From the NCBI GenBank assembly GCA_922989275.2, contig OV277858.1, positions 100,054,794-100,118,793 on the forward strand: a stretch of DNA of 64,000 nt, written 5' to 3'. The position numbers and the translations under genes were made by a program. This DNA is from Gari tellinella (Eukaryota > Mollusca > Bivalvia > Cardiida > Psammobiidae). The notes beneath the pieces are model-generated. The model had not been told where the DNA came from. It did not search any database and worked only from the letters and a program-made list of their open reading frames with translations. Below, piece after piece: positions 3,353-60,132 of this stretch (position 1 is its first letter; each line of letters starts with the position of its first letter).

Positions 3353-3613
3353 TACAGAGGAGATAACGTTATTCTTTCCCGTTTTTAAACGCAAAGAAAT
3401 GCAAACGCAGTGCACTAACATGGAGAAAATTACATCTTTTTTTTTATATACTTCTGACTGTTTATTTTACTCTGAGTAGCAAACATTTGGGAGCCTGATC
3501 AGACACACGGTTACTTGACGTCTGATTTGGCTCCAAACCGACGTCTGATCTGGCTCCAAACTGTTTGCAATGGAAACAATAGTTTAAGAGAATAACGTTT
3601 TTTTCCACTGTTA
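3353..3613. mobile_element. Family A MITE (Tc1/mariner-like ends), degenerate
   Basis: Starts TACAG-AGGAGA and ends TCCACTGT, the decayed form of the CAGTGGAGAA terminus seen in intact copies. Internally it has the family A order: TTATTCTTTCCCG, the TTTAAACGCAAA segment, then core I. The right arm of core I is duplicated here, with two GACGTCTGAT-TGGCTCCAAAC segments at about 3518-3560. Confidence 0.75.
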
Positions 3614-3671
3614 TCTTTGTAGAAACTCAACAAGTCGTTAGAGTGCTAGAATGTTACGTCAGAGACCCTGG

Positions 3672-3827
3672 CTCCAAGGTTATACATTTTTTTAGTTGAG
3701 TCTGAAATCGTCCTAAATGTTTTTAATTGGTCAGATTTGAGTTTTTGATGAGCAAAAACTCAAATTTGACTAAACAATGTCAAAAAACCATATAAGACTC
3801 AACTTAAAAGCTTTATAACCTTTTAAC
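3672..3827. mobile_element. Family O palindromic element
   Basis: An imperfect palindrome centred near 3750 with inner arms GGTCAGATTTGAG and CTCAAATTTGAC. Outer arms include GTTGAGTCTGAA and its complement next to AAAGCTTT. The same structure recurs at 21025-21175. No ORF. Confidence 0.6.
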
Positions 3828-4039
3828 TTTCAATACGTCTAACTGTTATTGTGCTTGGTAACCATTTTTATACTACAGTTGTCTAGGAATTTAGAATAAT
3901 TTTGAAAATATGTTTTGATAATTTTGTAAGCCATTTAAATATTAGAGCGTACTAAGAGTCAGTTACTGAAATAGCTGGAACGGAATTTGGGTTGACATGC
4001 TATTTTATCAAAATTGCCGTTATAGATTCTAAATGTGTG

Positions 4040-4092
4040 TGTCTGTTAGATTTACTTGTAGGTTTTAAATAAAGATTTGAATTTGAATTGTC
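4040..4092 (+). repeat. Possible LINE 3' tail
   Basis: The run AAATAAAGATTTGAATTTGAATTG combines a polyadenylation-like signal with a short tandem tail, the way 5'-truncated CR1/jockey-type LINE copies end. No upstream coding remnant was recognised, so this is tentative. Confidence 0.3.
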
Positions 4093-4521
4093 TCATTCAA
4101 TCAATGCCTTCATTAAAGAATCAAAAATAATTCTAAATAAGATGATAAAGCTGTCTATATGTTTAAACTGTTATTATTTATTTTAATACATGTTTGTTGT
4201 TTCAGATTCTATCACCAGATGTCACTGGCCATCAGCCTTGGATGTTTGTCTAAATCTTGAGAAGTCTGCAATATTAACCCTGGAGTCATCCTTTCTCATT
4301 GACTGTGCACAGAATGTGTCTGGTGCTTAGCCTTACTCAACAGAGAAAAGTGACATTAACGAGAATGAACCAGATTTAACAAAACAAAGTTTAATTCATG
4401 ATGAATTTATGTTTACACAAAGTCATCACCCAGCTGGTCTCAAAATATTAGGAAAAGTCTTAGTTTAATGAGGAGCAGCTAACCCAAGAAATATATTACA
4501 TATACATACTTTGATTGCACA

Positions 4522-4730
4522 TTAACCCATCACTCAATCAATATGCAGTTTTACCCCTCTTATTTATTTCTCCACTGAGCAAAATAGTTCCACACTATGG
4601 AATCATGAATGTATACACTATAAGGAGCCTAAAGCATTTTGAAAGTAAAGCAGAATATACCATTAGGTACTTTCTACTTTACTTTCAACATGCTGTAATA
4701 AAAAACCTAGATAATGGGGTAAAGGGTTAA
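4522..4730. mobile_element. Family B MITE (TTAA-flanked, piggyBac-like ends)
   Basis: TTAA at both ends, starting TTAACCCATCAC and ending GGTAAAGGGTTAA. The centre holds core II (TTGAAAGTAAAGCAGAA...TTCTACTTTACTTTCAA). The CCC(T)-type terminus and TTAA duplication fit piggyBac rules. Non-coding. Confidence 0.75.
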
Positions 4731-5844
4731 ACAGACATAGTCTGAAAGATCAAACTACTACAGAGCTACAGGTAAAAGGCATAATTTTATCTCATTTTCA
4801 AATATTCTAAATGTCTATTTTTTCATTTTTAATTCCATTTCTAAAAAATAATTATTTCCTAAATGCATTACTTTGGCTACTCAAACTCCTTAGAACATAT
4901 CTATTACATTGTGCTTCAGTATATTTACCAAGTTCATTTTATTATCTTGAGCTATGTAATTTTTTAAGTACTTGAAATATGTGTACAAAACCAGAATTTC
5001 AAATAAAATATATTTCAGTAAGCACACTATTTGCATAGATATAAATCATAACAAGAACTTTTGTCTATATATTTGAGATCCATTTCCATTTTTTTTATTG
5101 ATATCAGTCATTTTCTTCCATATCAGAGCTTCCTTTATTCTAATTGCACACCAATTGTATATCTTGCAAGTATTATGCTTCACTACAAACAGTGTACTTA
5201 CAAGAAATGCACTTTTCTTCTGCCTCAGTGTAAACTTTGAACAGAACATCCGCTAAAGGAGCCCTCTGATCAAGGTCGCCACACGAAGAATAAGACTTTA
5301 GTTTCAATGCATCGGTGTACATGTATACTTTAAACAGAACGCAATTAAACAAGCTGGACAAAATTTTATTTTGATTTTAAATGTACATTTAAATCTTCAG
5401 TGGTTATTGAATGAGAGGTTTCGCCTAACTGTGGACAACGTATGCAAATAGTCGCTGTCATGGACATTTTACTGAAATGAACTATCTGGTCGTAGACCAA
5501 TTGGAGTGTCAGATGGCCGATTTTGTCAATTTCAAAATTGATTGATTTGGGTTTACGGCCGCAAACTGTGACACAAAGGTTGTCATAATAGCGCCGATGT
5601 TGTGTCAATTTCATGTCATCTATAATAGCAAGTCGCTGCCGTCGAAAGTTCGGCATTTTAAAAATATGTACATGTATGTGCACAATAACGGTACAATGTA
5701 TACATAACTCGTATACGAGAAATGGGATTCAAGTTGTTTGTTATCGCTTTTATTAATGAGTTAACTGCAAGTTTCAATAATAAATCAAAACTTACTTTGC
5801 CTAGTGTGTTTACTTATATGATGTGTTCTGCTTTGTATCCATCC
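4731..5844. other. Intergenic, one unrecognised 105-codon ORF on -
   Basis: No repeat or palindrome was recognised. A 105-codon ORF on the - strand (5366-5683) has no recognisable motif. ORFs of this length also occur by chance inside non-coding MITEs of this window, so it is not called a gene. Confidence 0.4.
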
Positions 5845-6093
5845 TACAGTGGAGAAAACGTTATTCTTTCCCCTTTAAACGCAAACAAAACGCAAACGCA
5901 AAACACTAAATGTAGAAAAGGCTACTTTTCGATAATTCTGAACTTTCATTTTTTTCAGAGTGGCAAACAGTTTGGAGCCTGACCAGACACCGGCTTAACC
6001 GGCGTCTGATATGGCTCCAAACTGTTTGCAAAGGAAATAATAGTTTTAGCGTAAACGCGTTTATTGGGAAAGAATAACGTTTTCTCCACTGTA
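5845..6093. mobile_element. Family A MITE, full length
   Basis: TA + CAGTGGAGAAAACG at the left and CGTTTTCTCCACTG + TA at the right give perfect short termini with a TA target duplication, the Tc1/mariner pattern. Interior: TTTAAACGCAAAC segment, spacer, core I at about 5963-6033, then TTTAGCGTAAACGCG. About 249 bp; no ORF of substance. Confidence 0.88.
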
Positions 6094-6775
6094 CCTTATA
6101 ATGTCACCTGTCAACAGAATTATTTAGTTGTACAAATTTGGTTGTACTGTATACTATGAAGAAGACGCTATTATTCCCCAATAAACTCGTTAATGCTAAA
6201 ACTATATATGACTATACTTTTCCATCATAAACAGTTTGGAAACAGATCAGTCGCTGGATAACTAAATAGTAATGAGTTCATAGGGTGCAAACTGAATGGG
6301 AAACTGTTTAGATCCCGACCAGAATGCTCCCTCAGGAGTCTACACCATTTGCTAGCTAGTGTCTGTCCAAATACTTAGGGTTATTACAGTAAAAACCTTT
6401 TGCATTTCGCCTTAATGACCGTTATGTGTATTTGGCGCACGGTAATTATTTTGTATTTTCAATTACAATGCATTCACCAGCTTCTTTGCACTGACAGTGT
6501 AGGCTGTAGTTTGGCCAGAACGCTGTTCAAACCGTCATTGTTATTGTTTATACTGGGCCCCGGAAAGATCATAACTATAGCGGTCATTAACGGCGCGTGT
6601 GCACGTGAATCGCCTTGTTAATACACGTTAAAGTCCTCGTTAATGCACCCCCTGGGAACGGCTTTTTATGCAAGAATCTTTGTTAATGCTTGAATATGTG
6701 TATAATATTGATGTAGGTACTGGTTAGCAACCTTAACCACCATACTTTATTAGTCGAAGACAGAAAAATTATGCA
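6094..6775. other. Intergenic, decayed core I remnant
   Basis: Around 6180-6320 there are weak traces of family A and core I (AAACAGTTTGGA near 6230, AAACTGTTTAGATCC near 6302). No gene. Confidence 0.3.
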
Positions 6776-9687: not shown

Positions 9688-11778
9688 ATGAAGAATGATA
9701 AAAGCCCTGGAAGTGATGGCTTTACATCAAATTTCTTTAAAGTTTTTTGGAATAAACTTGGACATTTCGTTGTAAAAGCCCTCAACCATGCGTTCTTGGC
9801 TGATTCCTTTTCTAAAAATATAAAATTAGGAACAATTACATGTATTCCCAAGGACAATAAACCAAAGCAATTTTTGAAAAATTGGAGACCAATGACATTG
9901 TTAAATGTATTGTATAAATTAGCATCTGGTAGTATAGCAAATAGAATTAAAACTGTTTTAAATACGCTAGTGTCTCGTGATCAGACTGGATTTGTTAAAG
10001 GTAGATACATTGGTGAAAATACTAGATTACTGTATGATATTATGAAATACTGTGAAGATAACAATATACCAGGTTTATTAATGCTAATAGATTTTGAGAA
10101 AGCTTTTGACTCCGTGTCATTTGACTTTATTGATAAAACTTTGTCATTCTTTAACTTTGGCGATATGTTCAAAAAGTGGATTAGATTATTTCTGTATAAT
10201 ACTGAGGTTTGTGTACAACTTAATGGGTTTCTATCAAATTTTTTTCAAGTTAAGCGAGGCTGCAGACAAGGGGACCCAATATCATCTTACATTTTTATAC
10301 TGTGTGCTGAAATTCTAGCAATAAGAATAAAAAATTGTAAAAATATCACTGGAATAAAAATCAAGGGGGAAGAATATAATATATCTCAATTTGCAGATGA
10401 CACCTCCTTATTTTTAGATGGCTCTGACAAGTCTTTGCATAATGTTCTAGAAGTTATCAATAATTTTTCAGCTATATCCGGTTTATATGTCAATTTTGAC
10501 AAAACAAAGGTCATTTGGATTGGTTCTCTTAAGTACAGTACAAGGTCAATAAAAACGAAATGGAAACTATCTTGGGGTGATAGTCAGTTTAAAGTTCTAG
10601 GGATTCATTTTGATGTAAATTTAAATGTGATCTGCGAGATAAATTTTGAAGAAAAGATAAAGAGTATACAAAAATGCATTTTATATTGGAAAAGGCGGAA
10701 ACTGACTCCTATCGGCAAAATAACTGTTGTTAAAGCTTTACTTTTACCTATACTTACACATTTGTTTATAGGCTTGCCAACGCCAACAATGAACTTCGTG
10801 AAAAATCTTACTAACATATTTTATGAATTTATATGGAATGGTAAAGCAAAAATAAAACGAAGCGTTCTAATAAAGGATTATTCAGAAGGAGGGTTAAAAA
10901 TGATCGATATTGAAAGCTACATAAGAAGTTTAAAAATTAAATGGTTTAAGAATTTCATAATTCACAATGATAGTAAATGTTATAATCTATTGCAAAACCT
11001 GATAAACATGACAAAGCTACTGAATTCCGGAAGTATGTTCTGCAAATTGATATTAAATAAGTTAAAGAATAAATTTTGGGTCGATGTCTTAGAAGCATAT
11101 ATGCTTTATATTAAAAAGAGTAGTGTTGGAGATATACAAGACATATATAATATGCCATTATTCTATAATGATAATTTTCTCATAAATAAAAAAGCTGTAT
11201 ATATACCATCACTTTACGATAGAGGGATACGATATGTAAACGACATTCTAGATAAAGATGGTAATTTTGTAGATTTAAAATACTTAGAAGAAGTGAGTGG
11301 AAAAAAGATTAATTTCCTTCATTATTATGGCTTAATAAATTCAGTTAAGTCTTTTATGACTAGATCAGGATTTACTCCGAAAAAAGATTCACTTTTAGAA
11401 TTTCAATACCCAACCATTAATTGTTATATGTACCCCATTTTAACCGGAAAATGTGATAATAAATTTGTATATAATGTACTTGCTAATAACGATGATGCCC
11501 CTACTAGTCAATCCAAATGGGTGTCAATATACAAAAATAGTCTTATAAATTGGAAGAATATGTATAGCTATGTATTTAAATGTACTAAAGATACTTATTT
11601 GCAATGGTTACAAACTAGAATTATACATAGAATATTACCTACTAATACATTATTATTTAAAATGAAAATCAAAGATACTAATTTATGCACTTTCTGTCAT
11701 AATCATGAAGAAACTATTGTTTATTTGTTTTGGGAATGTTGTAAAGTGAAACCAATACACATATTTCAGATAGGTTAG
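9688..11778 (+). pseudogene. LINE reverse transcriptase
   Basis: A 696-codon open frame with the RT blocks in order: KSPGSDGF (residues about 5-12), NWRPMTLLNVLYK (about 65-77), TGFVKGRYIGEN (about 96-107), LIDFEKAFDS (motif A with catalytic Asp), GCRQGDPISSYIF (motif B) and QFADDTSLFLDG (motif C, FADD in place of YADD). A CTFCHNHEETIVYLFWEC motif close to the end is the C-terminal CCHC-type knuckle of this clade. The enzyme copies element RNA at the nicked target. The frame terminates early at 11776-11778; the missing tail continues in another frame. Confidence 0.92.
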
Positions 11779-13860: not shown

Positions 13861-14110
13861 TACAGTGGAGAATCTGTTATTCTTTCCCAATAAACGCGTT
13901 TACGCTAAAACTATTATTTCCAATACAAACAGTTTGGAGCCAGATCAGACGCCGGATAACCCGGCGTCTGACCAGGCTCCAAACTGTTTGCCACCAAGAT
14001 AAACAAGAATTATCAGAATTGTCCAAAAATTGTTCTTTTCAACGTTTTAGTGCTTTGCGTTTGCGTACGTTTGCGTTTAAACGGGAAAGAATAACAGATT
14101 CTCCACTGTA
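13861..14110. mobile_element. Family A MITE, full length
   Basis: TACAGTGGAGAATCTG...CAGATTCTCCACTGTA with TA duplication. It carries a near-perfect core I (13928-13992: GCCGGATAACCCGGC centre). Orientation is opposite to the 18538 copy. The AATCTG subterminal variant defines a subgroup with 18538 and 58509. Confidence 0.88.
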
Positions 14111-14251: not shown

Positions 14252-14503
14252 TTAACCCTTTCCCCAATAGAAGCGCCTTTTAGCGCATATGATTTATTCC
14301 TCCGCTGAAGAAAGTAGTTCCAATATAATCAGTCATGAATATATAGTATAGGCAATAATTTCTATATTCTAGCACATGAAAGCTTAAAGCAGGCTGCAAG
14401 TAAAGCAGAATGTGCCTAAGGCACATTCTGCTTTACTTTCAACCTGCTTTAAGTAGTCACCTATCTTCAATACTAGAAATAGGCTATCAGGTAAAGGGTT
14501 ATG
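14252..14503. mobile_element. Family B MITE, full length
   Basis: Left end TTAACCCTTTCCCCAATAG; right end GGTAAAGGGTTA with the last base of TTAA changed. Core II is at 14385-14455, a stem of about 32 bp with very few mismatches (GCAGAATGTGCC centre). Subterminal GAAGCGCCTTTTAGCGC is a family signature. Confidence 0.82.
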
Positions 14504-15100: not shown

Positions 15101-15437
15101 CAGGGGCCCGTTTCATAAAACTTCGTACGACAAAAACGATCGTAAGTCAAAACTGTAAAATACATTTAATTTCTGATTTCTCTATCTAATCCTGTCTTGT
15201 GACATCTCTTTGGAATCGTCTTGAAAAGACTATTCCAAAAAGATGTCACAAGACAGGATTAGATAGAGAACTATCTAATCCTGTCTTGTGACATCTCTTT
15301 GGAATTGTCTTGAAAAGACTATTCCAAAGAGATGTCACAAGACAGGATTAGATAGAGAAATAAATAATAGTTTAGACTTTTATAATCTGACTTACGATCG
15401 TTTTTGTCGTACAAAGTTTTATGAAACGGGCCCCAGG
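15101..15437. mobile_element. Large palindromic element with GGGGCCCGTTTCATAAA ends
   Basis: TIRs of about 47 bp begin CAGGGGCCCGTTTCATAAA and include ACGATCGTAAGTCA. The interior contains two consecutive copies (about 15181-15267 and 15269-15357) of an 88-bp unit, each itself a near-perfect palindrome around CTTGAAAAGAC. The whole can fold as a long cruciform. The GGGGCCCGTTTCATAAA end is a widespread animal MITE terminus. No coding content. Confidence 0.82.
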
Positions 15438-15659: not shown

Positions 15660-16005
15660 TACAGTGTTAACTCCCTTCAACGGCCGTCTCAACAATGACT
15701 CCCTCCTTACAACGCTCCTTGTCGCTGTTCCCTAAACAGGACATTTATGTCTAACGATTTTATTGCTGCAATGTCGTCTGTATAAAGTTGTCATCTGCTG
15801 TTGTTCTCAAAGTTACATATTAAGTGGACATTTGGATAAAATAAATATAATGACGAGTGACAAACAGCTTAACTCCAGATCTGGATCCAAGCTGTTTGCA
15901 AATGTAAGCAAATTCTTAATTTCTCCTCTCTATAACGACTCCCTCCGAACAACACACACAATATGTGTCTCCCTTTGGGTGTCGTTGTAGAGAGGGAACA
16001 CTGTA
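15660..16005. mobile_element. Family C MITE nested in family B
   Basis: TACAGTG...CACTGTA with TA duplication, subterminal CTCCCT-CAACG and CGTTGTAGAGAGGGA repeats. Core I has lost its centre, leaving CCAGATCTGGATCC (about 15876-15889). Family C has long subterminal blocks of the form CTACAACGAC-CTCCCTC. Confidence 0.8.
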
Positions 16006-16135: not shown

Positions 16136-16332
16136 TACGGTTGAACTTCGATAAATTGAACTCGGTAAGGTCGAACATACTCGTATTTCAAAGTTAAAAC
16201 GTGGCTAAGCCACGTTTTAACTTTGAATTACGGGTATTTTCGACTTAACCGAGCATGAAATAATGCAATTCATGTGTCGACAAATCGGATAGTTCGAATT
16301 AAGCGATCTCGAGATATCGAAGTTCGACTGTA
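16136..16332. mobile_element. Family D MITE nested in family B
   Basis: Ends GGTTGAACTTCGATA and TATCGAAGTTCGACTGTA with a TA duplication. The interior contains a perfect stem, AGTTAAAACGTGGC + TAA + GCCACGTTTTAACT, at about 16193-16227. The AGTTCGACTGTA terminus is shared with the 26725 copy. Confidence 0.75.
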
Positions 16333-16818: not shown

Positions 16819-17176
16819 TACAATGCTCCCTCTCTACAACAACACCCAATGGGGGAAATAGTGTATGTGTTGTTCGGGGGAAGTTGTTATAGGGAGGGAC
16901 ATTGGCTTACATTTGCAAACAGCTTTAATCCAGATCAGACGCCGCGGTACGCGGCGTCTGATCTGGATTCATACTATTTGCCACTCCTGATTATGTTTTC
17001 TTGTCAAATGTCCAATGTGTTACTTTGAGAGAAAAAACAGCAGACGACAATTTCAAGCAGACGATATTGCAGCAGTGAAAGGGTAAAATAATTGTTATGA
17101 TTGAGGAATAGCGGTAAGCATTGTTGTAAGGAGGGAATAGTTGTTCAGAAGGCCGTTGTGGTGTGGGGGCACTGTA
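16819..17176. mobile_element. Family C MITE, full length
   Basis: TACAATGCTCCCTCTCTAC...GGGGGCACTGTA with TA duplication. Core I at 16914-16983 has a GCCGCGGTACGCGGC centre and GATCTGGATTCA arms. The second half contains two GCAGACGA-type motifs also seen in family E. Confidence 0.83.
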
Positions 17177-17225: not shown

Positions 17226-17457
17226 TCTACATTATTCCCTCCCTACAACGGCCCTCTCAACAACGATCCCCTCCTTACAACGGCCCTTGTTGCAGTATCT
17301 TAACAGAAAAATTACGTCTGGCGCTTTTACTGCTGCAATATCGTCTGCTTTAAATTGTCATCTGCTGGTTTTTCTCAAAGTTACAATCGACATTTTGACA
17401 GAAGAAATATATATGAAGTGACAAACAGCTTGAATCCAGATCAGACGCCGCGTTAGG
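17226..17457. mobile_element. Family C MITE, truncated inside core I
   Basis: An intact left end (TACATTATTCCCTCCCTAC) and left half, ending abruptly after the left arm of core I (GATCAGACGCCGCGTTA). The right half is absent. Confidence 0.72.
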
Positions 17458-17526: not shown

Positions 17527-17780
17527 GTGTTAAATAAATACAAAATACTCAAGCAGGAAACGCAACACAAACACTACACCCACCTCTCAGGCAGAACACA
17601 CACACAGTCATACCATAACAAACACACACACACACACACACACACATACACTCACACACACACACACACACGCACAATACCATTCCTTCATATACACACT
17701 AAATAGAAAACAACACGCACGACAAACATAAAGCAAAGTGAGCATTGGAGCCCGCCTTGGTACGGTCAGTAACCCTAAAC
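17527..17780. repeat. Family F dispersed repeat with CA microsatellite
   Basis: The sequence from TTAAATAAATAC through a CA-dinucleotide run to GCCCGCCTTGGTACGGTCAG is repeated at 57190-57480 with high similarity. The microsatellite lengths differ between copies. Non-coding; likely part of a retroelement. Confidence 0.65.
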
Positions 17781-17860
17781 CCATTTGTGGTTAGCGTCCC
17801 ATAAAAGGAAAATGACATAGGCAAACAGTGTATACTCTGATCAGACGCTATATAATGCAG
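17760..17860. repeat. Family M fragment with half core I
   Basis: CCCATTTGTG near the start and GCAAACAGTGTATACTCTGATCAGACGC at 17821-17848 show the left arm of core I in the M variant. The right arm is missing. Confidence 0.5.
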
Positions 17861-18081
17861 TAAACTTTAGCCAATGAGATTGTCGTATGTTATTGATTTC
17901 TAAGTCACGTGCTGGAGATGCAATGTAATTGTTTGTACATGTATATATACTCAGCTCGCTATTAATTAGCATCAAGACGACATCCAGTGCAAGTCGATGA
18001 GAAAAGTTTTCACTTAGTGACACCACACCTAACTACAATAATGGTAAGTCTAAGAGAAGTGAACAACACATTGTTAAGTTC

Positions 18082-18416
18082 TAGTGCTCCATATCTACAG
18101 CGACACCAAATGGGAGACAACATTGTGAATTTGGAGGGGGTCGTTATAGGGAGGGAATCGGCTTACATTTGTAAACAGGTTGAATCCAGATTAGACGCCG
18201 CGTTACGCGGCGTCTAATCTGGATTCAAGCTGTTTGTCACTCGTCATTAAGTTGTTTCTGTCAAAATGTTCATTATGTAACTTTGAGAAAAAAGGCAGAC
18301 GACACTTCTAAGCAGTCGAAATTGCGGCAGTAAAAGAGTTAAACATAATTGTCCTGTTTAGGGAACTGCGGCAAGGGTCGTTGTTGGGAGGGCCGTTGTA
18401 GAGAGGGAGCGCTGTA
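18082..18416. mobile_element. Family C MITE, full length
   Basis: From TAGTGCTCC to GAGCGCTGTA. Core I at 18172-18237 is an almost perfect palindrome (GCCGCGTTACGCGGC centre, GATTAGACG / CGTCTAATC arms: a matched change on both sides). Confidence 0.8.
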
Positions 18417-18537: not shown

Positions 18538-18787
18538 TACAGTGGAGAATCTGTTATTCTTTCCCGTTTAAACGCAAACGTACGCAAACGCAAAGCACTA
18601 AAACGCAGAAAAGAACAACTTTTGGACAATTCTGGTAATTCTTGTTTATCTTGGTGGCAAACAGTTTGGAGCCTGATCAGACGCCGGGTTACCCGGCGTC
18701 TGATCTGTCTCCAAACTATTTGCACTGCAAGTAATAGTTTTAGCGTAAACGCGTTTATTGGGAAAGAATAACAGATTCTCCACTGTA
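18538..18787. mobile_element. Family A MITE, full length
   Basis: TACAGTGGAGAATCTG...CAGATTCTCCACTGTA with TA duplication; core I at 18656-18724. It lies directly before a family C element. Confidence 0.88.
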
Positions 18788-18810
18788 CGTGTAGCTTTGT
18801 TTGTTAACAC

Positions 18811-19271
18811 TACAGCATTCCCTCCCTACAACGGCCCTCTCAACAACGACTCCCTCCTTACAACGGCCCTCTCAACAACGACTCCCTCCTTACAACGGCC
18901 CTCTCAACAACGACCACCTCCCTACAACGGCCCTCTCAACAACGACTCCCTCCTTACAACGACCCGGACGCAGTTCCCTAAACAGGACATTTTATGTCCA
19001 ACGCTTTTACTGCTGCATATCGTCTGCTTAATGTTGTCGTCTGCTGTTTTACTCAAAGTCACACAATTGACATTTTAACAGAAAATAAACATTACGACGA
19101 GTACCAAACAGCTTGAATCCAGATCGGACGCCGCGTTACTCGGCGTCTGATTTGGATTCAAGCTGTTTGCAAATACTATAAGCAAATTTCCCTCCATATA
19201 GCGATTTCCTCCGAACAACGTACACAATCTGTGTCTCCCATTGGGTGTCGTTGTAGAGAAGGAGCATTGTA
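18811..19271. mobile_element. Family C MITE with internal minisatellite
   Basis: TACAGCATTCCCTCC...GGAGCATTGTA. The left subterminal region is expanded to about five copies of a unit of about 35-38 bp (CTACAACGGCCCTCTCAAC) at 18818-18965. Core I is at 19107-19171. Confidence 0.82.
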
Positions 19272-19541: not shown

Positions 19542-19750
19542 GTTTACCCCTTCACCGCTATATTGTTGTCTGCTTCAATATTGTTGTCTGCAATATCGTT
19601 TAAAAGTTAGATTTAAGGCAGTATAACTGACGTTATTTCATAGCAAGTTGCAAACAGTTTTGATTTTGTTCAGACGCCGCGTACCGCGGCATCTGATCAG
19701 GATCAAAATTGTTTGCAAATGCGCTTTATGACGTCATTGCAGTTAAGTTA
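19542..19750. mobile_element. Family E element (TTAA type), decayed ends
   Basis: The left part carries CCCCTTCACCGCTATATTG and two TTGTCTGC motifs. Core I at 19650-19717 has arms TTTTGATTTTG / CAGGATCAAAATT. The right end reads CATTGCAGTTAAGTTA. Compared with the intact E copies at 59159 and 59921, the termini are eroded. Confidence 0.6.
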
Positions 19751-21024: not shown

Positions 21025-21175
21025 TTTTAAAGCTTTAGAGTTCTGTTTAAGATCTATCCCAAGCATTTAACTGGTCAGATTTGAGCTTTTGCCCAGCAAC
21101 AGCTCAAATCTGACCATTCAAATGCTTGAGAACGATCTCAGAGTCGACTCAAAAGCTTTCCAACCTTAGGGCCAG
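21025..21175. mobile_element. Family O palindromic element
   Basis: AAAGCTTTAGAGTTC...CTCAAAAGCTTT outer arms and AACTGGTCAGATTTGAGC / GCTCAAATCTGACCATT inner arms. Same architecture as 3672-3827. Confidence 0.65.
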
Positions 21176-21431: not shown

Positions 21432-21615
21432 CCCAGATAAGAGCGAGTAAATGGAACAAATCCAAATTTTCTCACTCATTTCAACATTTAATCCTATGGT
21501 GTTACTATTCATTAGAATCGTCTCGAAGAGACGATTCTAGTGAGTAGTGACACCATAGGGTTTAATGCAGAAATAAAGATTTTAGTTCTTGAAATACTCC
21601 TCTAATCTGGAGCCT
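21432..21615. mobile_element. Family K element (CTGGAGCC ends)
   Basis: The centre TAGAATCGTCTCGAAGAGACGATTCTA is a perfect palindrome inside longer arms containing CCTATGGTGTTACTA / TAGTGACACCATAGG. The right end reads TAATCTGGAGCC. Related copies lie at 59707-59905 and, with a large deletion, 49074-49195. Confidence 0.65.
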
Positions 21616-22571: not shown

Positions 22572-22631
22572 TATAACATAATGTTCGTTTTTCAGGTAAT
22601 GGAAATATGTCATTGGGGAATATACATGTAA

Positions 22632-45155: not shown

Positions 45156-45752
45156 TTATTTTATTATATAAATTATAGTAAAAAATTTCTTGAAGTCAAT
45201 AACTGTTGGTGCAATTTTGGCTGTAACTGGTAGTAAGTTCCATTGTGGGATACTTCTAGGATAAAAAGAAAATTTATAAGCATCTTCACATGACCTGATT
45301 GGTCGGAAGCTGTACGGTGTGTAAAATCTTGTTCTGGGGTCAGTTGGTGTAAATAAAATTGTTCCTGGATGGATGGGTGGCGACAATTTGTTTAACTGTC
45401 TTATATGTCGTAGAACATTATCAGGCGGGCTCTTGTCCAACGAGTTTCAAGTGTTGTCCAGCCTAAATTGTCTAGCATGTTAGACACTGAACTAGTGTTT
45501 TTGTAGCTGTTTCAGACAAGGGCGGCTCTACTTTGAACTTTTTCTATTTTGTTTCTATGATGGGGTCCCAAACCGTTGAAGAAAATGGAATGAACAAGGG
45601 CTTTCTAAGCTCCTTAACATTTTGAGCTGTTACTTTTAAGTTTCTCTTCAGGAAGACTGAGGATTGATTAGCTTTGCTAGTAATGGAGTTGATATATTTA
45701 TCAAATTTAAAGTTATGTTGGAGGGTGACACCTAAGTATTTGGAACTATTTA
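45156..45752 (-). mobile_element. 3' end of a CR1/jockey-like LINE, broken
   Basis: Reading - from 45752: SKYLGVTLQHNFKFDKYIN, later STVWDP, then (other frames) LETRWTRARL-like residues, and at 45440-45156 an open frame with IRQLNKL and AYKFSFYPRSIPQWNLLP, ending FKKFF. This is the region following the RT palm in CR1/jockey-type elements. Several frameshifts and stops occur. The 5' side is cut exactly at the family A element at 45751. Confidence 0.78.
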
Positions 45753-45982
45753 CAGTGGAGAAAACGTTATAGGCGTTTACACTAAACTTTTATTTCCATT
45801 GAAAACAGTTTGGAGCCAGATGACGGGTAACCCCCGATGTCTGACCAGGCTCCAAAATGATTGTCACTCGGTTTAAAAAATCCTGAGAATTGTCAAAAAA
45901 TTGCAATTTCATACATTGTACTGTTACGCGTTGCGTTTCGTTTGCCTTTAATCTGGAATGAATAACGTTTTCTCCATTTTAC
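45751..45982. mobile_element. Family A MITE inserted at LINE fragment edge
   Basis: TACAGTGGAGAAAACG...CGTTTTCTCCATTTTA. Core I at 45800-45870 lost part of its left inner arm (GCCAGATGACGGGTAACC). Confidence 0.75.
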
Positions 45983-46029: not shown

Positions 46030-46158
46030 AGACTACTTTTGAGTAATAGTCAGGACTATACCCGGCGTCTGATCTGGCTCCAAACCGTTTGCAATGCAAA
46101 TAATAGTGTTAGCATAAACGCCTTTATTGGGAAAGAACAACGTCTTCTTTACCGTAAA
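46030..46158. mobile_element. Family A MITE, right half
   Basis: Begins within core I (ACCCGGCGTCTGATCTGGCTCC at about 46060) and continues to TTCTTTACCGTA. Confidence 0.65.
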
Positions 46159-46271: not shown

Positions 46272-46522
46272 TACAGTGGAGAAAACGTTATTCTTTCCCA
46301 GTAAACGCGTGTACGCTAAAACTATTTTTTCCAATGCAAACAGTTTGGAGCCAGATCAGACGGCGGGTAACCAGGTGTCTGATCAGGCTCCAAACTGTTT
46401 GCCACTCAGATTAAATTGAATAGTTAGAATGGTCAAAATGTTGTCATTTTCTCCATTATAGTGCAATGTGTTTGCGTTTCGTTTGCGTTTAAACGGGAAA
46501 GAATAACGTTTTCTCCACTGTA
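46272..46522. mobile_element. Family A MITE, full length
   Basis: TACAGTGGAGAAAACG...CGTTTTCTCCACTGTA with TA duplication; core I at 46338-46402. Very similar to the 52672 copy over its whole length (shared TAGTTAGAATGGTCAAAATG). Confidence 0.88.
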
Positions 46523-47626: not shown

Positions 47627-48115
47627 TACCGGAGAAGATGTTATTCCTTCACGTTAACCCTTTCCCCAATAGAAGCGACTTTTAGCGTATTTAATTTATT
47701 CCTCCGCTGAAGAAAATAGTTCCAGTTTATACCCTCATGAACAATTACCATACCGAATATTTTATATATCCCAGTAGATGGTAGCTAAAAGCAGGTTGAA
47801 AGTAAAGCAGAATGTGCCTTAAGGCACATTCTGCTTTACTTCAACCTACTTTAAGTGATCGCCTGTATTTGATGTTATAAACGGGTTATTGGGTAAAGGG
47901 TTAAACGCAAGCGAAATGCAAACGCATTGCATCAAATGTAGGAAATTTCAATAACTTGACATATCTCACAATTTATTTTAATCAGTGTGGCAAATTGTTT
48001 GGAGCCTGATCAGACGCCGGGTAACCCGGCGTCTGATCTGGCTCAAAACAATTTGCAACGGAAATAATCATTTTAGCGTAAACGCGATAATTGGGAAAGG
48101 ATAACGTCAACTGTA
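47627..48115. mobile_element. Family A MITE interrupted by family B
   Basis: TACCGGAGAAGATGTTATTCC at the left, AACGTCAACTGTA at the right; core I at 47990-48057. The expected TTTAAACGCAAAC segment is split exactly at its TTAA by a family B element (47654-47904), leaving GTT|TTAA...TTAA|ACGCAAGCG. Confidence 0.85.
47654..47904. mobile_element. Family B MITE nested in family A
   Basis: TTAACCCTTTCCCCAATAG to GGGTAAAGGGTTAA, both TTAA copies intact; core II at 47790-47853. The host site shows TTAA is the target duplication, the piggyBac hallmark. Confidence 0.88.
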
Positions 48116-48536: not shown

Positions 48537-48680
48537 TTAACCCATTTGTGCCCCGTTTCCCATATATGGTACATAGGAAAACAGTATAGACTCTGATCAG
48601 ACGCCGTATAATGCGGCGTCTGATCAGTGTCTACATTGTTTGCTGATAGGAATTTCAATATAAAACAAAATGAAAACATT
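48537..48680. mobile_element. Family M element (TTAACCCATTTGTG), truncated
   Basis: TTAACCCATTTGTGCCCCG then core I (48578-48643) with arms GTATAGACTC / GTGTCTACAT. The following GGAATTTCAATATAAAACAAA matches, in inverse orientation, the family M copy at 52486. Confidence 0.62.
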
Positions 48681-49073
48681 CATCCTCATCGTAGCAAACA
48701 CGCGGAATCGATAGAAATGGGATTTGACTGTGTGTGGTTTTATGAATAAAATTCGTGCCCGCTTATAATTTCGTTGTAGGTCACCCTCAAGCTCAGTGGA
48801 GAAAATCTTTTTATCCTGTAACAGACCGCAAAAGCGACCGAGAAACATGGGGGTGGATTTCTTTTCATATCCTACCACTTCCTTATATGGGGCAGTTTCC
48901 CTGGTCCAAGACACTATACATGTAAGCATTGAAGCTAGGACCAACATTTGGTATCCAGTCACTTCCTTATATGGGTGCGTAGGAATACGGAACTATTTTG
49001 ACCTATTTCAATTTTGACAAATGACGTCACGACTGCAGAGTACAGATCAAAACAATGATGCTAAATATAAGAG

Positions 49074-49195: not shown

Positions 49196-49248
49196 TGTGA
49201 AAAAATATGATGCAAAATCAGTAACAAATTAGTTTTGTTGCTTAAAGA

Positions 49249-49399
49249 AATTGCAACGTTTTGACATTTCTCAGGATTTATTTCAAGCAGAGTGGCAAAC
49301 ATTTTGGAGTCTGATCTGGCTCTTAACTGTTTACAATGGAAATAATAGATTTTTCGTAAACGCGTTTATTGGGAAAGAATAAAGTTTTCTAAACTGTAT
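49249..49399. mobile_element. Family A MITE, right part with collapsed core I
   Basis: GCAAACATTTTGGAGTCTGATCTGGC has lost the whole inner hairpin, joining the two arms directly, followed by TTTTCGTAAACGCGTTTATTGGG and CTAAACTGTA. Confidence 0.6.
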
Positions 49400-51743: not shown

Positions 51744-51938
51744 TCAACCTTTTCACTGCCAACGCTGCCAAAAGGCCACTATGCAAACAGTAACGCGGCG
51801 TCTGATCAGGATCCAAACTGTTTGTCACTCGTATCGACATTTCTTCAGTTACAACAGCCCTAAAACTGACTTTAAAAATATTGCAGACGACACTACCAAT
51901 GCAGACGATATTGTGGCGGTCGGGGAGGGGTGTTATTA
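51744..51938. mobile_element. Family E element, TTAA lost
   Basis: CCTTTTCACTGCCAACGC then GCAAACAG fused directly to TAACGCGGCGTCTGATCAGG (left inner arm deleted), CACTCGTATCGACATTTC, and two GCAGACGA motifs. It closely parallels 54214-54430. Confidence 0.6.
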
Positions 51939-52485: not shown

Positions 52486-52954
52486 TTAACCCATGTGCGC
52501 CCGGTGGATTCTGCCATGCTTATATATTGGATTGGTCCAGTTTGGATATACATTTTAAGGGGTGCCCAGGTCTAAAATTCATTTTCGGTTTGTTTTATAT
52601 TGAAATTTCTATTAGCAAACAGTGTAGATTATGATCAGACATCGGAGCTATGTCTACACTGTTTGCCTATTTACAGTGGAGAAAAAGTTATTATTTCCCA
52701 GTAAACGCGTTTAGGCTAAAACTATTATTTCCAATGCAAACAGTTTGGAGCCAGATCAGACGCCGGGTAACCCGGCGTCTGATCAGGCTCCAAACTGTTT
52801 GCCATTCACATTAAATTGAATAGTTAGAATGGTCAAAATGTTGTCATTTTCTCCATTATAGTGCAATGCGTTTGCGTTTCGTTTGCGTTTAAACGGGAAA
52901 GAATAACGTTTTCTCCACTGTACCTGTTATATGCGTTAGGTGCAACTGGGTTAA
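52486..52954. mobile_element. Family M element with nested family A
   Basis: TTAACCCATGTGCGCCCG at the left and GGTGCAACTGGGTTAA at the right. A core I variant at 52616-52668 has arms GTGTAGATTATG / TATGTCTACAC. Family A sits at 52672-52922. Removing it leaves a compact TTAA-flanked unit of about 218 bp. Confidence 0.78.
52672..52922. mobile_element. Family A MITE nested in family M
   Basis: TACAGTGGAGAAAAAG...CGTTTTCTCCACTGTA with TA duplication. Core I at 52737-52801 is close to perfect (GCCGGGTAACCCGGC). Confidence 0.9.
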
Positions 52955-53086: not shown

Positions 53087-53349
53087 TTAACCCATTACAT
53101 GTAACACATAGCCTGTTTCTAGTTTTAAAGATAGGTTACCACTTAAAGCAGATTGAAAGCAAAGCAAAATATGCCATTAAGCACATTCTGCTTTACTTTC
53201 AGCCTACTTTAAGCTATAATATGATAGAAAAAACAAAATACTTCTTCATGAAACATATTAATCACTGTATAAAATGGAATTACTTTCTTTCTTTAGTGGA
53301 GGAATAAATTAAAAGCGTAAACAGATGTATTTATGAGGTAATGGGTTAA
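53087..53349. mobile_element. Family B MITE, full length
   Basis: TTAACCCATTACATG to GAGGTAATGGGTTAA; core II at 53134-53212, subterminal CCTGTTTCTAGTTTTAA and GTGGAGGAATAAATTAAAAGCG. Confidence 0.8.
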
Positions 53350-53437: not shown

Positions 53438-53653
53438 CTAACCCTTCATTGCCTTACCCCGGGTGCAAGAGTAATTTGCAAACAGTTTGAATCCTGATAA
53501 GACGCCGTGTAAGGCGGCGTCTGATCAGGATCCAAACTGTTTGCCACTCATTTCAATATTTCTGATATCAAAATATCCAAAATTTAAATTCTAGAAACAA
53601 AAGCAGACGACAATTGTTTTTAATTAATGACTTCACGGCAGTGAAGGGGTTAA
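53438..53653. mobile_element. Family E element, nearly intact
   Basis: CTAACCCTTCATTGCC...CGGCAGTGAAGGGGTTAA; core I at 53478-53544 has arms TTGAATCCTGATAAGACGCCG / CGGCGTCTGATCAGGATCCAA. The CCCTTCA-TGCC terminus with TTAA is piggyBac-like. Confidence 0.72.
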
Positions 53654-54213
53654 TTCTTAAAATTCAGAACGTTGCTTGATATTCACATGAGCTTCAAACC
53701 CTGCCTCACTGATGTAGCAAATGGTCATACATGTATTCAGGGAAACAATAAGACCAAACTCCTAAAATCTGGGACACCCTGTGTATCTGCTGTAATTATC
53801 ATAGCATTTTAACAAATTGTTCATGTCGCACAATAATTTGTCAAAAAATTGCAAATTGAATGGCAAACAGCGTTCATCCGGTAGATCCGGATATAAGTAG
53901 AGAGCGTTCCTGTACTGCATTTCAGTTTCATTTATGTTAGATCCTCTACTCCTGATCTTTGACACGTTTTACATTTTACAGTAAAATCGAAAATGACACA
54001 ATGTACACATTCTCAAGAAGAATATTATTTACAGTATATCGAAGGAATGTGACGGGTTAAAGCTCCTATTTCATCCTGCAGTAAACAGTCACTTGTTTCA
54101 AAAATCAAACATTCAGTTGTTTAAAATATTACTTATATCCAAGACATATGCTAATTTCTGGCAACATTAAAGCTCTTATTTTATATTGCTGTAAGCAGCC
54201 ACCAGTCTAAAAC

Positions 54214-54430
54214 ATTAACGTTTTCACTGCCAAAGGCGCCAAAACGTGCCCTGTCAAATAATTTGGATCCTGATCAGACGCAATATAACGCTGCGTGTGA
54301 TCAGGTTCCAAACTGTTTGTCACTCGTATCGACATTTCTTCAGTCAAAACAGCCCTAAAGCTGACTTTAAAAAGATTGAAGACGACAGTACCGATGCAGA
54401 GGATATTTTGGCGGAAAGAGATTTAAATCA
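54214..54430. mobile_element. Family E element, right end lost
   Basis: TTAACGTTTTCACTGCC at the left; core I at 54258-54321 (CAGACGCAATATAACGCTGCGTG). Then CACTCGTATCGACATTTC and a degraded right end. Confidence 0.62.
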
Positions 54431-54540: not shown

Positions 54541-54747
54541 TACAGTATGACCTCTCTAATACGACCACTGAATAATGCAAGGTATTTCGGTTTTAAGGAA
54601 TGTGGCTGCTTAAATCGATGTGGCAGTAAAACAGAAAGCTCCTTTAGGAGCTTTCTGTTGTACTGTGACATTGCTTTAAGTTGTCCCCTATTTATAATGC
54701 AGCCAATAAGCATTTTTAAGCGGCCGTAAGAGAAAGGTGTTACTGTA
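54541..54747. mobile_element. Family G MITE, full length
   Basis: TACAGTATGACCTCTCTAAT...AGAAAGGTGTTACTGTA with TA duplication; core II at 54613-54676 (CAGAAAGCTCCTTTAGGAGCTTTCTG perfect centre). Confidence 0.82.
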
Positions 54748-54995: not shown

Positions 54996-55206
54996 TACAG
55001 TAATACTCCTCGATTACAACCGCTAGATTATTTAATTTATTATGTGTTGAATGCAAGGGACTGCTAAAAGCAAGATGGAAGTAAAACAAAAAGCTCCTTT
55101 AGGAGCTTTTTGTTTTACTTTCACCTTGCTTTAATATATCACTTGTGTTTCATTAATCCATTGACCTTTGCTTTTCTAGTGTTCGTAGTAGCGAAGTTTA
55201 ACTGTA
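54996..55206. mobile_element. Family G MITE, full length
   Basis: TACAGTAATACTCCTCG...GAAGTTTAACTGTA; core II at 55065-55133 with a matched change on both arms (ACAAAAAGCTCC / GGAGCTTTTTGT versus ACAGAAAGCTCC elsewhere). Confidence 0.82.
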
Positions 55207-56850: not shown

Positions 56851-56940
56851 TTCACCCTTCACTGCCAAACCAATCGTGAGTATTTTACCCATTCACCTCC
56901 ATATTGTCGTCTGTTGGAATATTGGTGTCTACAATAGCGT

Positions 56941-57193
56941 TTAACCCTTTACCTGATAGCATTGTTTCTAGTATTGAAGATATGTGACTACTTAAAGCAG
57001 GTTGAAAGTAAAGCAGAATGCGCCCTAAGGCGAATTCTGCTTTACTTTCAGCCTGCTTTAAGCTATTAACTGCTAGAATAAGGAAAGTATTAAATATGAC
57101 ACATATTCATTACGGAATAATTTGGAACTATTTTCTTCAGCGGATGAATAAAATGAATGTGCTAAAAGTCGCTTCTATAAGGGAAAGGGTTAA
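56941..57193. mobile_element. Family B MITE, full length
   Basis: TTAACCCTTTACCTGATAG to GGGAAAGGGTTAA; core II at 56993-57061. It is inserted at a TTAA whose right flank (ATAAATACGAAAG) matches the uninterrupted family F copy at 17530. Confidence 0.85.
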
Positions 57194-57480
57194 ATAAATA
57201 CGAAAGACTGAAGCAGGAAACGTAACACAAACAATACACCCACCTCTCAAGCAGAACACACACACACAGTCATACCAGAACAAACACACACACACACGCA
57301 ATACCATTCCTTCATCTACACACTAAATAGAAAACAACACGCAAGACAAACATAAAGCTAAGTGAATGTAGGAGCCCGCCTTGGTACGGTCAGTAGCAAT
57401 CAATAATTAATTATTAACAACCACTGGGGGTTAAACCTGGGTTTAGGGGCGCCCAACCTCACTCTTATCTCCTATATTCA
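57190..57480. repeat. Family F dispersed repeat
   Basis: Second copy of 17527-17780: CACCCACCTCTCAAGCAGAAC, a short CA run, CCCGCCTTGGTACGGTCAG, extended by AACCACTGGGGGTTAAACC. Confidence 0.65.
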
Positions 57481-57589
57481 CCTATAAAGACAAACAGTGT
57501 ACATAAAATATAAACCCTGTTCCTAAACCTTACAATCAAAAAGACAAGTCTTGCGTAAGGCAGTTTAACTGCAGGAAGGCCGAAACTAT

Positions 57590-57912
57590 TGTCAAATTGT
57601 TGTAATCATGATCGGATTCCGTATAAGGCGGTATCTGACCTGGATCCAAACTGCTTTAAAAGTCGCATTTAGTCGCATACGGCCGAAAGGTTGAACCCCT
57701 TCACAGCTACTACGTCTTCAACTTTAACCAGCTTTCGTCTGCTTTTATATCTCAAGTAAAAATGTTATGTATTTTGACTTATTGAATATTGAAATGAGTG
57801 TCAAACAGGTTTGATCCTGATTAATTGCCACGTTTGCAAGTATCCATTGTGTTCGGGGTAAGACAGTGACGTTGGCCCGATCGATACTCGGGGAAAGGCA
57901 GTGAAAGGGTTA
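57590..57912. mobile_element. Core I variant plus family E-like element
   Basis: 57596-57660 is a diverged core I (ATCATGATCGGATTCCG...CGGTATCTGACCTGGATCC). 57692-57912 runs GAACCCCTTCACAGC, half core I at 57792 (CAAACAGGTTTGATCCTG) and GGCAGTGAAAGGGTTAA. Confidence 0.55.
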
Positions 57913-58508: not shown

Positions 58509-58758
58509 TACAGTGGAGAATCTGTTATTCTTTCCCGTTTAAACGCAAACGTACGCAAACGCAAAACACTAAAACGTAGAAAAGAACAACTTTTGGACAA
58601 TTCTGATAATTCTTGTTTATCTTGGTGGCAAACAGTTTGGAGCCTGATCAGACGCCGGGTTACCCGGCGTCTGATCTGGCTCCAAACGGTTTGCACTGCA
58701 AATAACAGTTTTAGCGTAAACGCGTTTATTGGGAAAGAATAACAAATTCTCCACTGTA
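58509..58758. mobile_element. Family A MITE, full length
   Basis: TACAGTGGAGAATCTG...CAAATTCTCCACTGTA with TA duplication; core I at 58627-58694. Nearly identical to the copy at 18538-18787, suggesting a recent burst of this subgroup. Confidence 0.9.
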
Positions 58759-58789
58759 GCAGTTTCTGCCCCGTGTGCAGCGTGCAGAG

Positions 58790-59026
58790 TACAGAAGAGA
58801 AAACATTTTCTTTCCATATAACCCCGGTTACACTTAAACTATTATTTTCATTGCTAACAGTTTGGAGCCTAATAAGACGCCGGGTAACCCAGCGTCTGGT
58901 CAGGCTCCAAACTGTTTGCCACCCAGAATAAAATTGGTAGTCGGAATTGTAAAAACGTTGTCATTTTCTATATTTCATTGCAATGCATGTGCGTTTGAAT
59001 GGAAGGACAGTGTTTTCTTCACTGTA
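58790..59026. mobile_element. Family A MITE, diverged
   Basis: TACAGAAGAGAAAACA...GTTTTCTTCACTGTA; core I at 58854-58919 (GACGCCGGGTAACCCAGCGTC). Confidence 0.8.
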
Positions 59027-59158
59027 TTTCAGATAGGTACAATGTAGCCAACTCGAAATCGATTGCCATCGACGGCCATCGATTTCTTTACTGAACTCAT
59101 CACTGGTTCGAACCCCACTGCATCACTGTAATTCACGAATCGTCCTTAGGATTAGACC

Positions 59159-59341
59159 TTAACCCTTATCCTGCGGTGATGTCGTCTGCTTCGAAATTGT
59201 CGTCTGCAAAGTTTGTTAAATTTAGATTTATACATTTTTTAAGTAAAGAAACCCAAAGAAGAGTGTCAAACAGTTTGTCTGATCTGGATCTAAACTGTTT
59301 GCAAACATCGATAAAGTCGCGACCAGCAGGCAAAGGGTTAA
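59159..59341. mobile_element. Family E element with collapsed core I
   Basis: TTAACCCTTATCCTGCGG to AGCAGGCAAAGGGTTAA, TTAA on both sides. Core I lacks its centre (CAAACAGTTTGTCTGATCTGG). Two TCGTCTGC motifs lie near the left end. Confidence 0.78.
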
Positions 59342-59706
59342 AACGAGTTCAAGTGGCGGAGTGGGAGACTTATCTTCACTTGGCTAGATGAAAACGACGA
59401 TTATTGGACAGACTATCAAGATATAGTTCAAATCCAAATTTAATTTTACTGTGTTTACAAGTTTTGATGGATATAAAATGTGTCGTAATATACATAGTTA
59501 TATATCTTTTAAAGCCGCATTGTGTTTTTTAGAAACCTGCATAAAACGGTTGTTTGGGGTCCCATTTGAACTACGTGGGACGTGATTCTTTCACAAAAAC
59601 CGGTTTTATCTAAGAAATTCGCTTTTTAAATTTTATTTATAATATTTTGGTGCTGCACACATTAAAGAGCCTCCCTTGTGAATGGAAAGAAGGACAACTC
59701 TGTAAA

Positions 59707-59905
59707 TACAGGGCTCCAGATAACGGAAGTATTTCGAAAACTAAAATCTTTATTTCTGCTTTTAAACCCAATGGTGTCATACTCATTAAAATTGTCTCGA
59801 AGAGACGGTTTAATCAGTAGTAACACCATAGCATTCGGTGCTGAAATGAGTGAGAAATTGTTAGATTAGTTCAGATTACTCTCGCTTACATCTATAGCTG
59901 GAGCA
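59707..59905. mobile_element. Family K element
   Basis: ACAGGGCTCCAGATAACGG to CTGGAGCACTGG with a central TTGTCTCGAAGAGAC palindrome; inverse orientation to 21432-21615. Confidence 0.65.
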
Positions 59906-59920
59906 CTGGAAATGACCCTG

Positions 59921-60132
59921 TTAACCCTTATTCTGCTGCACAGACGTCTGCTTTGACATTGTCGTCTGCAAAATGTGTTCAGTTTAGATTTATGCATTGT
60001 TTTAATTAAACAAACCTGAAGACGAGTGTCAAACAGTTTGGATCCAGATGAGACGCCGCGTTACGCGGCGTCTTTATAGATTCAAATAGTTTGCAAACTC
60101 CTAAAAGTTACGACCAGTAGGCACAGGGTTAA
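59921..60132. mobile_element. Family E element, full length
   Basis: TTAACCCTTATTCTGCTGC to AGTAGGCACAGGGTTAA with TTAA on both sides; core I at 60029-60093 (GACGCCGCGTTACGCGGCGTC centre, perfect). Confidence 0.82.

Follow-up and report, generated by a model that had tools for sequence, protein, structure and literature searches.

Can a single palindromic sequence be common to transposable elements whose ends belong to different classes, and does it contribute anything to their multiplication? The question is raised by a 64-kb stretch of contig OV277858.1 of the bivalve Gari tellinella (hereafter the window, from which all of the DNA evidence is drawn), where a 67-bp palindrome, core I, lies inside miniature inverted-repeat transposable elements (MITEs) of two TA-flanked families (A and C) and of two families that end in TTAA (E and M). 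A reading of the window made from its letters only (the sequence-only reading) had described this hairpin and suggested that it spreads between families or is itself mobile or selected. The reading that we prefer, tentatively and as something short of probable, is that core I is an internal palindrome module of MITEs with at least two classes of ends, which acts in cis, as DNA, and aids their amplification.

Core I lies within elements with two types of ends

Sequences within two mismatches of the half-arm GATCAGACGCCG occur 51 times in the window against 1.20 expected, a number reached in none of 100 shuffles, and a two-armed hairpin with a short loop (up to 6 substitutions) matches at 26 places, two of them from one duplicated copy. 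A palindrome scan blind to the motif returned 27 long palindromes, comprising 14 copies of core I, five of a second core (core II, below) and eight others; 13 of the core I spans are 61–71 bp and one is given as 43, and the same scan on one shuffled sequence found no long palindromes. A covariance model trained on 20 copies finds these again, as it must by construction, and further decayed copies besides; searches with profiles of the four families yield 49 matches that do not overlap, of which some have no core. The estimate in the sequence-only reading of about 50 whole, half or decayed copies was therefore of the right order of magnitude. Folded as DNA, four of the cores have energies of -25.1 to -39.9 kcal/mol (z -11 to -17), with a stem of about 32 pairs and a loop of 3–5 nt.

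The TA-flanked hosts are well delimited. Family A has terminal inverted repeats (TIRs) CAGTGGAGAAAACGTT and TA duplications, with 15–16 of 16 TIR positions matching in six copies, and family C has TIRs near CAGTGCTCCCTCTCTACAACGAC and is TA-flanked in two copies (14 and 11 matches of 16; Table 1); the 16-bp TIR test did not pick out the C copies at 18082 and 18811-19271. A and C elements are about 250 and 360 bp long and present in many copies, and none of the 14 open reading frames (ORFs) of at least 120 aa falls within one. We take A, C and the TA-ended hosts of core II to be Tc1/mariner-type MITEs in kind, which they resemble in their TA target duplication and CAGT... inverted ends, and from which they differ in that their hairpin core is also found in TTAA elements.

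Families E and M end in TTAA with short, imperfect termini of CCC type. TTAA is present on both sides of the E copies 59159-59341 (11 of 18 inside positions match) and 59921 (read from the sequence), E copy 53438 has CTAA on the left and TTAA on the right, and a single M copy, 52486-52954, has TTAA on both sides and is interrupted by an A element. Because the automatic 16-bp terminal test did not detect the ends of either family, these are weaker evidence than the ends of A and C. Presumably E, M and the TTAA-ended hosts of core II are piggyBac-type MITEs, which they resemble in their TTAA ends and CCC termini (a TTAA duplication with CCC-type ends is found at 59159-59341, 47654-47904 and 52486-52954) and from which their short, imperfect TIRs set them apart. 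Kolobok elements are defined by a TTAA duplication and termini of the form 5'-RR ... YY-3' (PMC9587614) and are ruled out, as E, M and the TTAA-ended core II hosts start with CC after the TTAA. The A element within M was inserted at a TA directly beside the M hairpin, so that two hairpin elements are nested.

The claim that one hairpin is present in families with two end types is thus borne out, and confinement of all copies to one family or one terminus type is not what is seen in the window. The hairpin had also been called central; it is internal, but the profile centres (98 of 251 in A, 131 of 360 in C, and 71 of 213 in E) place it about one third along the element. Two copies had been read as standing in no delimited element, and this holds for the copy at 25061-25127, where only the core is found. 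The copy at 23401 is probably a decayed A element, because positions 43-162 of the A profile still match.

Families C and E share more than the hairpin

In BLAST comparisons between families, most of the matches listed stop about 31–50 bases from the hairpin centre, the exceptions among them being the C–E pairs and the A-like copies 21741 and 23430. The E profile finds a match in each of the five full C copies, from position 33 or 34 to 199-211 of 213, such that the shared stretch runs from the left hairpin edge to, or near, the right TTAA terminus of E, and the right arms of C and E are alike (z 5.0, 0 of 200 shuffles). Since E ends at its TTAA while C runs on to its own TIR, the preferred history of C is that of a TA MITE which acquired an E element whose left arm was later lost. 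The suggested spread between families is therefore supported for this pair, with the core and right arm of E present in C.

For the other families the sharing is narrower. The right-arm similarity between A and C was reached in 5 of 200 shuffles and that between A and E in 13 of 200, and M has none with any family. Because the right arm of C set against the left arm of E, an unrelated combination, gave 5 of 200 as well among 28 comparisons, a right arm common to A and C or E is not established, and A and M share the hairpin alone, as far as shown.

The core diverges less than its flanks and its arms covary

Substitution rates were taken from eight A copies (one without an end) and four C copies, and paired changes from nine A and four C copies, with damaged, half, duplicated and tip-deleted copies excluded from both; the rate tests treat cells as independent. 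In family A, departures from the consensus number 27/536 (5.0%) in the core, compared with 123/858 (14.3%) in the flanks (p 1.4e-8) and 56/608 in the TIRs (p 0.008). In family C the core (20/268) is again below the flanks (107/871, p 0.027), although a deficit relative to the TIRs (20/190), as in A, is not seen. Within the window, divergence of the core thus does not keep pace with that of the elements around it. Variants shared by at least two A copies are also scarcer in the core (3 in 67 columns) than in the flanks (26 in 106, p 3.5e-4), and those of family C show no difference between the core and other parts.

Across 20 aligned full cores, 87.8% of cells are paired and 13 of 32 pairs have changed on both sides; covariation is 0.210, compared with 0.116 in a shuffled control that ignores relatedness, and 0.029–0.047 when the arms are slid. 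The A and C consensus sequences differ at six pairs, four of them on both sides, and those four are all Watson-Crick. Copy-specific changes in 13 copies touch 46 pairs, with four two-sided, a lower proportion than the 4/6 between the consensus sequences (p 0.003).

Breaks cluster at the hairpin apex

Sixteen of the 49 profile matches have one internal end, one true terminus and a score of at least 30 bits, and two of these are pieces of the duplicated copy 3353-3610. In 6 of the 16 the internal end is no more than 4 bases from the apex, against 0.73 expected (p 5e-5); these six are five half copies and one piece of the duplication, and without that copy the count is 5/14. The deletion in the E copy 51747-51931 likewise ends at the apex, and in two copies (15661-16005 and 49248-49398) the tip has been lost between two GATC repeats. 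Palindromes are recombinogenic, and their extrusion and cutting at the loop are described in general terms in the accessible part of PMC7999016; the apex breaks fit a structure that extrudes and is cut in this way. Insertion of another element at the apex TA was considered as a cause of the half copies and rejected, as no matching half is rightly placed among the 49 profile matches.

Core I beyond the window

Two of the hairpin's reading frames contain no stop, which makes it possible to look for core I among predicted proteins with conceptual peptides. Two such searches gave 98 and 120 proteins at E<=1, with 51 and 31 below 0.001, and 87/98 and 117/120 of these contain the whole core under a permissive pattern, on contigs of up to 8.9 Mb; the species of the window may itself have supplied some of them. 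Right flanks of at least nine residues fall, at a crude threshold, into 36 clusters of 79 and 36 of 78, with 30 and 25 singletons. Among matches with RRR at the apex, 62/80 carry A or V at the left position and A or T at the right one, in the combinations that base pairing requires (A-A 44, A-T 4, V-A 6, V-T 8; p 2.9e-4), and at a second site 40/58 are paired, compared with 29.4 expected (5 of 20000 permutations), both figures being limited by relatedness among the matches and by the bias of a word-based search. In many of the external matches, the outer stem of core I surrounds another apex (..PDQARQNVGPDLDP..); most of these lie on very long contigs, and two right flanks recur among them. 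The hairpin family is therefore wider than core I.

In IMG/VR there are no matches to the full core or to the half-core pattern, and one to a shorter palindrome. GTDB contigs gave 46 matches, the best locus (among the best 15 listed) agreeing at 38/67 core places in a sequence of 65% G+C, and we take all 47 to be unrelated hairpins, as the best reaches only 38/67.

Literature searches with core strings, core peptides and palindromic MITE cores gave no description of such a core, and none of a hairpin common to MITE superfamilies, at the level of the titles and abstract openings listed. It is nonetheless doubtful that core I has gone undescribed, as the sequence-only reading had supposed. In the accessible text of PMC4732748, repeats of the hemoglobin genes of Lucina pectinata include a consensus 1 of 210 bp, with 30-bp imperfect TIRs and a 77-bp segment that is 96% self-complementary, and a consensus 2 with a 68-bp self-complementary segment and a short stretch common to consensus 1; fragments more than 80% similar are reported from Biomphalaria, Aplysia, Crassostrea and Lottia. 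Likened by description alone, these are short bivalve repeats with a palindromic segment, as are the hosts of core I, and they differ in having no target duplication, according to the authors; that text does not discuss a hairpin common to several element families. The Lucina pectinata repeats (2016) may be an earlier sighting of core I or of a sister module.

Two other known systems invite comparison. The pearl, CvA and DTC84 elements are modular bivalve MITEs with satellite-like internal repeats, and DTC84 has a conserved palindrome near the repeat junction (PMC5139131, accessible part). A and C have one palindromic core, and their alignments show no internal array, so they are not MITEs of the pearl type. 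The highly conserved domain (V domain) of short interspersed elements (SINEs) is also present in MER6, a Tc1/mariner MITE, and core I resembles such domains in being a conserved internal segment of otherwise different elements; unlike that domain, which is SINE-derived and not described as a palindrome in the accessible part of PMC6887750, it is carried by DNA elements with TIRs. Core I is not itself a SINE domain, since its carriers have TIRs and TA or TTAA duplications and are not retroposed SINEs. The best reading of core I would be a transferable MITE palindrome comparable to the conserved domains of SINEs.

Cores II and III

The covariance model also finds core II, near TAAAGCAGGTTGAAAGTAAAGCAGAATGTGCC, at 13 places, and core III, near GCAAATTAAGTCTACCCTGATTAGACAGCTCC, at three. 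In register with core I, core III has an identity of 0.507 (0 of 5000 shuffles) and core II one of 0.446 (2 of 5000), the latter with edges set by a model built on core I. The five core II copies from the unbiased scan, centre-aligned to core I, give 0.357 (171 of 5000) and, one base off, 0.417; taken singly at their best offset, these five reach 0.425–0.523, compared with 0.311–0.413 for seven control palindromes. The similarity of core II to core III is reached in 516 of 5000 shuffles. Core II may be homologous to core I. Core III has an apex (AGCTCC..GGAGCT) that resembles the apex of one core II variant, as though apices and stems were interchangeable parts.

The hosts of core II are TTAA-ended at 14385, 47787, 53144 and 56993 and TA-ended at 24728, 54611 and 55066, so both cores occur with both end classes within 64 kb. 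Of the TA copies, 55066 alone can be matched to the TTAA class over a stretch longer than 70 bases, which takes in the core and at most about 20 bases of the right arm. The ends of the TA class resemble those of C (13.1/27, 0 of 2000 column shuffles), whereas no such resemblance links them to A (8.4/27, 377 of 2000); in this comparison the similarity is lowered by a misplacement of one or two bases in 2 of the 12 end sequences of C and the TA class. By eye, the TA-type copies of core II have sequence resembling the right arm to their left as well as to their right, as though an inverted copy of that arm had been added. Near-perfect palindromes of 89–186 bp that are not like core I are present at 15176-15361, 16161-16253, 21050-21138, 21478-21574, 25801-25925 and 60334-60451, and are perhaps small elements that are wholly palindromic.

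How the shared palindrome is to be read

If core I aids amplification, as we tentatively prefer, then an E element would have nested in an ancestor of C, and the palindrome DNA would fold into a hairpin or cruciform and act in cis, as DNA, such that elements with a good hairpin amplify better. This could come about through replication stalling and repair, or through access to transposase or chromatin, and elements with quite different ends would keep gaining the hairpin through nesting and exchange of ends.

Several observations weigh against this reading. TTAA is intact in only one of the five C copies (18082) and the E left arm is missing in all five, so that the nesting of E in C is something that we infer, and within the window no route of transfer was seen for A or M, to which the suggested spread also extended. 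Shared variants are not fewer in the A core than in the TIRs (7 in 76, p 0.34). Singletons are fewer in the core of both families, at 20/67 in A compared with 48/106 in the flanks (p 0.055) and 37/76 in the TIRs (p 0.026), and at 18/67 in C compared with 83/192 (p 0.020). Singletons should be neutral after insertion and hit all parts alike, so this deficit points to a contribution from ascertainment (copies with damaged cores having been excluded) or from correction, not to selection on master copies. One-sided changes are more frequent in comparisons that involve E, M or the 19683 copy, as expected where one or two decayed copies represent a family, and these comparisons add nothing to the argument. 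In copy 48023, two neighbouring pairs are each altered in both arms, as template switching predicts; the accessible part of PMC8794818 reports that template switching creates or repairs hairpin stems via multi-base compensatory changes. Template switching in replication could therefore keep a palindrome symmetrical without selection, and selection on the hairpin is accordingly unproven.

The same observations lend themselves to a second explanation, which we regard as quite possible if also short of probable. Core I may be passive cargo, an ancestral MITE palindrome passed on by nesting, end replacement and ectopic recombination, with its arms matched by template switching and with no role. 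C looks like a nested E, two-sided changes are present in copies 48023 and 18204 (one in the latter), the core has fewer singletons too, and both the mending of stems (PMC8794818) and the recombinogenic nature of palindromes (PMC7999016) are reported in the accessible parts of those papers. Mere carriage accounts less well for an A core that departs from its consensus less than even the TIRs do, though this is not so in C, and every A or C element found by its ends keeps a remnant of the core, as far as these were aligned. Elsewhere, too, the core is found between many different flanks, and the pattern is repeated by a second hairpin of near-equal length.

A stem of about 32 pairs with covarying arms would also be expected if core I acted as RNA, transcribed and then processed or bound (as a small RNA, in editing or against silencing), with the RNA under selection. 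However, G·U pairs should escape selection that acts on one RNA strand, and the mismatched pairs include 24 G·T and 24 A·C, an equality that gives no support to an RNA role. No Rfam family matches the window at the gathering threshold, the loops of the four folded cores have only 3–5 nt, and we consider this explanation improbable.

We think it still less probable that the 67-bp palindrome is a mobile element that inserts into other elements, as the sequence-only reading had entertained. The edges between families are fairly sharp among the matches listed, and the copy at 25061-25127 has nothing recognisable around it, as self-mobility would lead one to expect. Self-mobility is nonetheless unsupported, because the unit common to C and E is longer than the hairpin and extends well past its edge, and the 23397 copy retains A-like flanks; no target duplication at the hairpin edges, and no copy inserted alone with its own duplication, was noticed in the window, where no systematic search for either was made. 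Chance or an assembly artefact can be dismissed, given 51 half-arms where 1.20 are expected, copies that are diverged and lie in both orientations and in different contexts, and the presence of the core in peptides from other contigs.

Other features of the window

The window has a G+C content of 35% and reads as animal (eukaryotic) DNA. Among seven ORFs scanned for domains, two (9688-11778 and 32849-35485) encode reverse transcriptases of long interspersed elements (LINEs) with RVT_1 domains, and none has a transposase domain; no transposase is linked to the TA-ended MITEs. The LINE protein has 2081 relatives in the database, and the 120 listed include Candidatus Thiodiazotropha endolucinida (44–46% identity), a symbiont of lucinid clams; this is presumably contamination from the host. 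A YqaJ-domain ORF at 27484-28500, with its neighbouring ORFs (27484-30022), is perhaps a domesticated or mobile-element gene of an animal genome, and its protein has no relative in IMG/VR. There are no tRNA genes in the 64 kb.

Coordinates of the elements and cores are collected in Table 1. In the C copy 18811-19271, positions 1-355 of the C model match over 18912-19271 and positions 306-360 over 18811-18865. Five overlapping matches to the C right end, about 33 bp apart, form a small tandem array at 18808-18963.

Table 1. Elements and cores in the window, by family.
Feature	Position	Strand	Evidence
Family A, core I 5963-6029	5845-6093	-	TIR 16/16, TA both sides; A model 1-251
Family A, core I 13925-13991	13861-14110	+	TIR 16/16, TA
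Family A, core I 18657-18723	18538-18787	-	TIR 16/16, TA
Family A, core I 25671-25737	25551-25798	-	A model 3-251
Family A, core I 46336-46402	46272-46522	+	TIR 16/16, TA
Family A within M element beside M hairpin, core I 52736-52802	52672-52922	+	TIR 15/16, TA
Family A, core I 58628-58694	58509-58758	-	TIR 15/16, TA
Family A, core I 58853-58919	58790-59026	+	A model 1-251; TIR 12/16
Family A, hairpin arm tandemly duplicated from near apex	3353-3610	-	A-model pieces 70-251, 3-96
Family A, damaged core	45751-45978	+	A model 1-248
Family A without one end, core I 47990-48056	47901-48113	-	A model 3-221
Family A, hairpin tip lost between two GATC repeats	49248-49398	-	A model 1-178
Half A, ends at apex	6157-6262	+	A model 6-100, centre 98
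Half A, ends at apex	22631-22725	+	A model 3-97, centre 98
Half A, ends at apex	46059-46156	-	A model 1-98, centre 98
Decayed core I with A-like flanks	23397-23463	+	A model 43-162 over 23382-23493
Decayed core I, no delimited element	25061-25127	+	Covariance model; only E model 40-104
Family C, tip (27 columns) lost between two GATC repeats	15661-16005	-	Holds E model 34-199
Family C, TA-flanked, core I 16915-16981	16819-17176	+	TIR 11/16; holds E model 33-211
Family C, core I 18171-18237	18082-18415	+	Holds E model 34-211
Family C, right-end array, core I 19104-19170	18811-19271	-	Holds E model 34-209
Family C, core I 39223-39289	39128-39485	+	TIR 14/16, TA; holds E model 34-208
Half C, ends at apex	17229-17455	-	C model 130-359, centre 131
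Family E, left CTAA, core I 53478-53544	53438-53655	+	E model 2-212
Family E, core I 54254-54320	54217-54426	+	E model 4-211
Family E, deletion from outer arm to hairpin apex	51747-51931	+	E model 5-211
Family E, TTAA both ends, core partly deleted	59159-59341	-	Sequence and end reading
Family E, TTAA ends, core I 60029-60094	59921-60117	-	E model 2-211
E-like, core I 19650-19716	19544-19731	-	E model 26-210
Half E, ends at apex	57694-57834	-	E model 71-209, centre 71
Family M, starts TTAACCCA, core I 48577-48643	48537-48681	+	M sequence; right end not identified
Family M, TTAACCCA..TGGGTTAA, damaged core I 52615-52666	52486-52954	+	Interrupted by A 52672-52922
M left part, broken 12 positions beyond hairpin centre	17776-17866	+	M model 1-87
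Core II, TTAA-ended host ~56940-57194	56991-57062	-	Covariance model, palindrome scan, end reading
Core II sisters, TTAA type	14385-14451, 47787-47853 (element 47654-47904), 53144-53211		
Core II 54611-54678, TA-ended host (CAGTATGACCTCTCTAATACGACC)	54541-54747	+	End comparison
Core II sisters, TA type	around 24728-24795, 55066-55133		
Core III, in register with core I	36712-36777	+	Sisters 30959-31025, 38307-38375

Implications

More broadly, cores I and III, and perhaps II, might belong to a superfamily of palindromes of about 67–72 bp that would form a transferable, cis-acting part of DNA transposons, with ends and cores freely combined. Selection in many animal genomes would then maintain the hairpin because it aids amplification, which would make it the DNA-transposon equivalent of the conserved SINE domains. 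We regard this wider proposal as rather unlikely. Non-autonomous transposons are usually defined by their ends, with the interior treated as filler. A better-conserved core amid unrelated ends would mean that the interior matters for the multiplication of the elements, and such a core could help to explain very large MITE families. The half-elements that end at the apex, together with the tips lost between GATC repeats, are a natural record of the breakage and repair of short palindromes.

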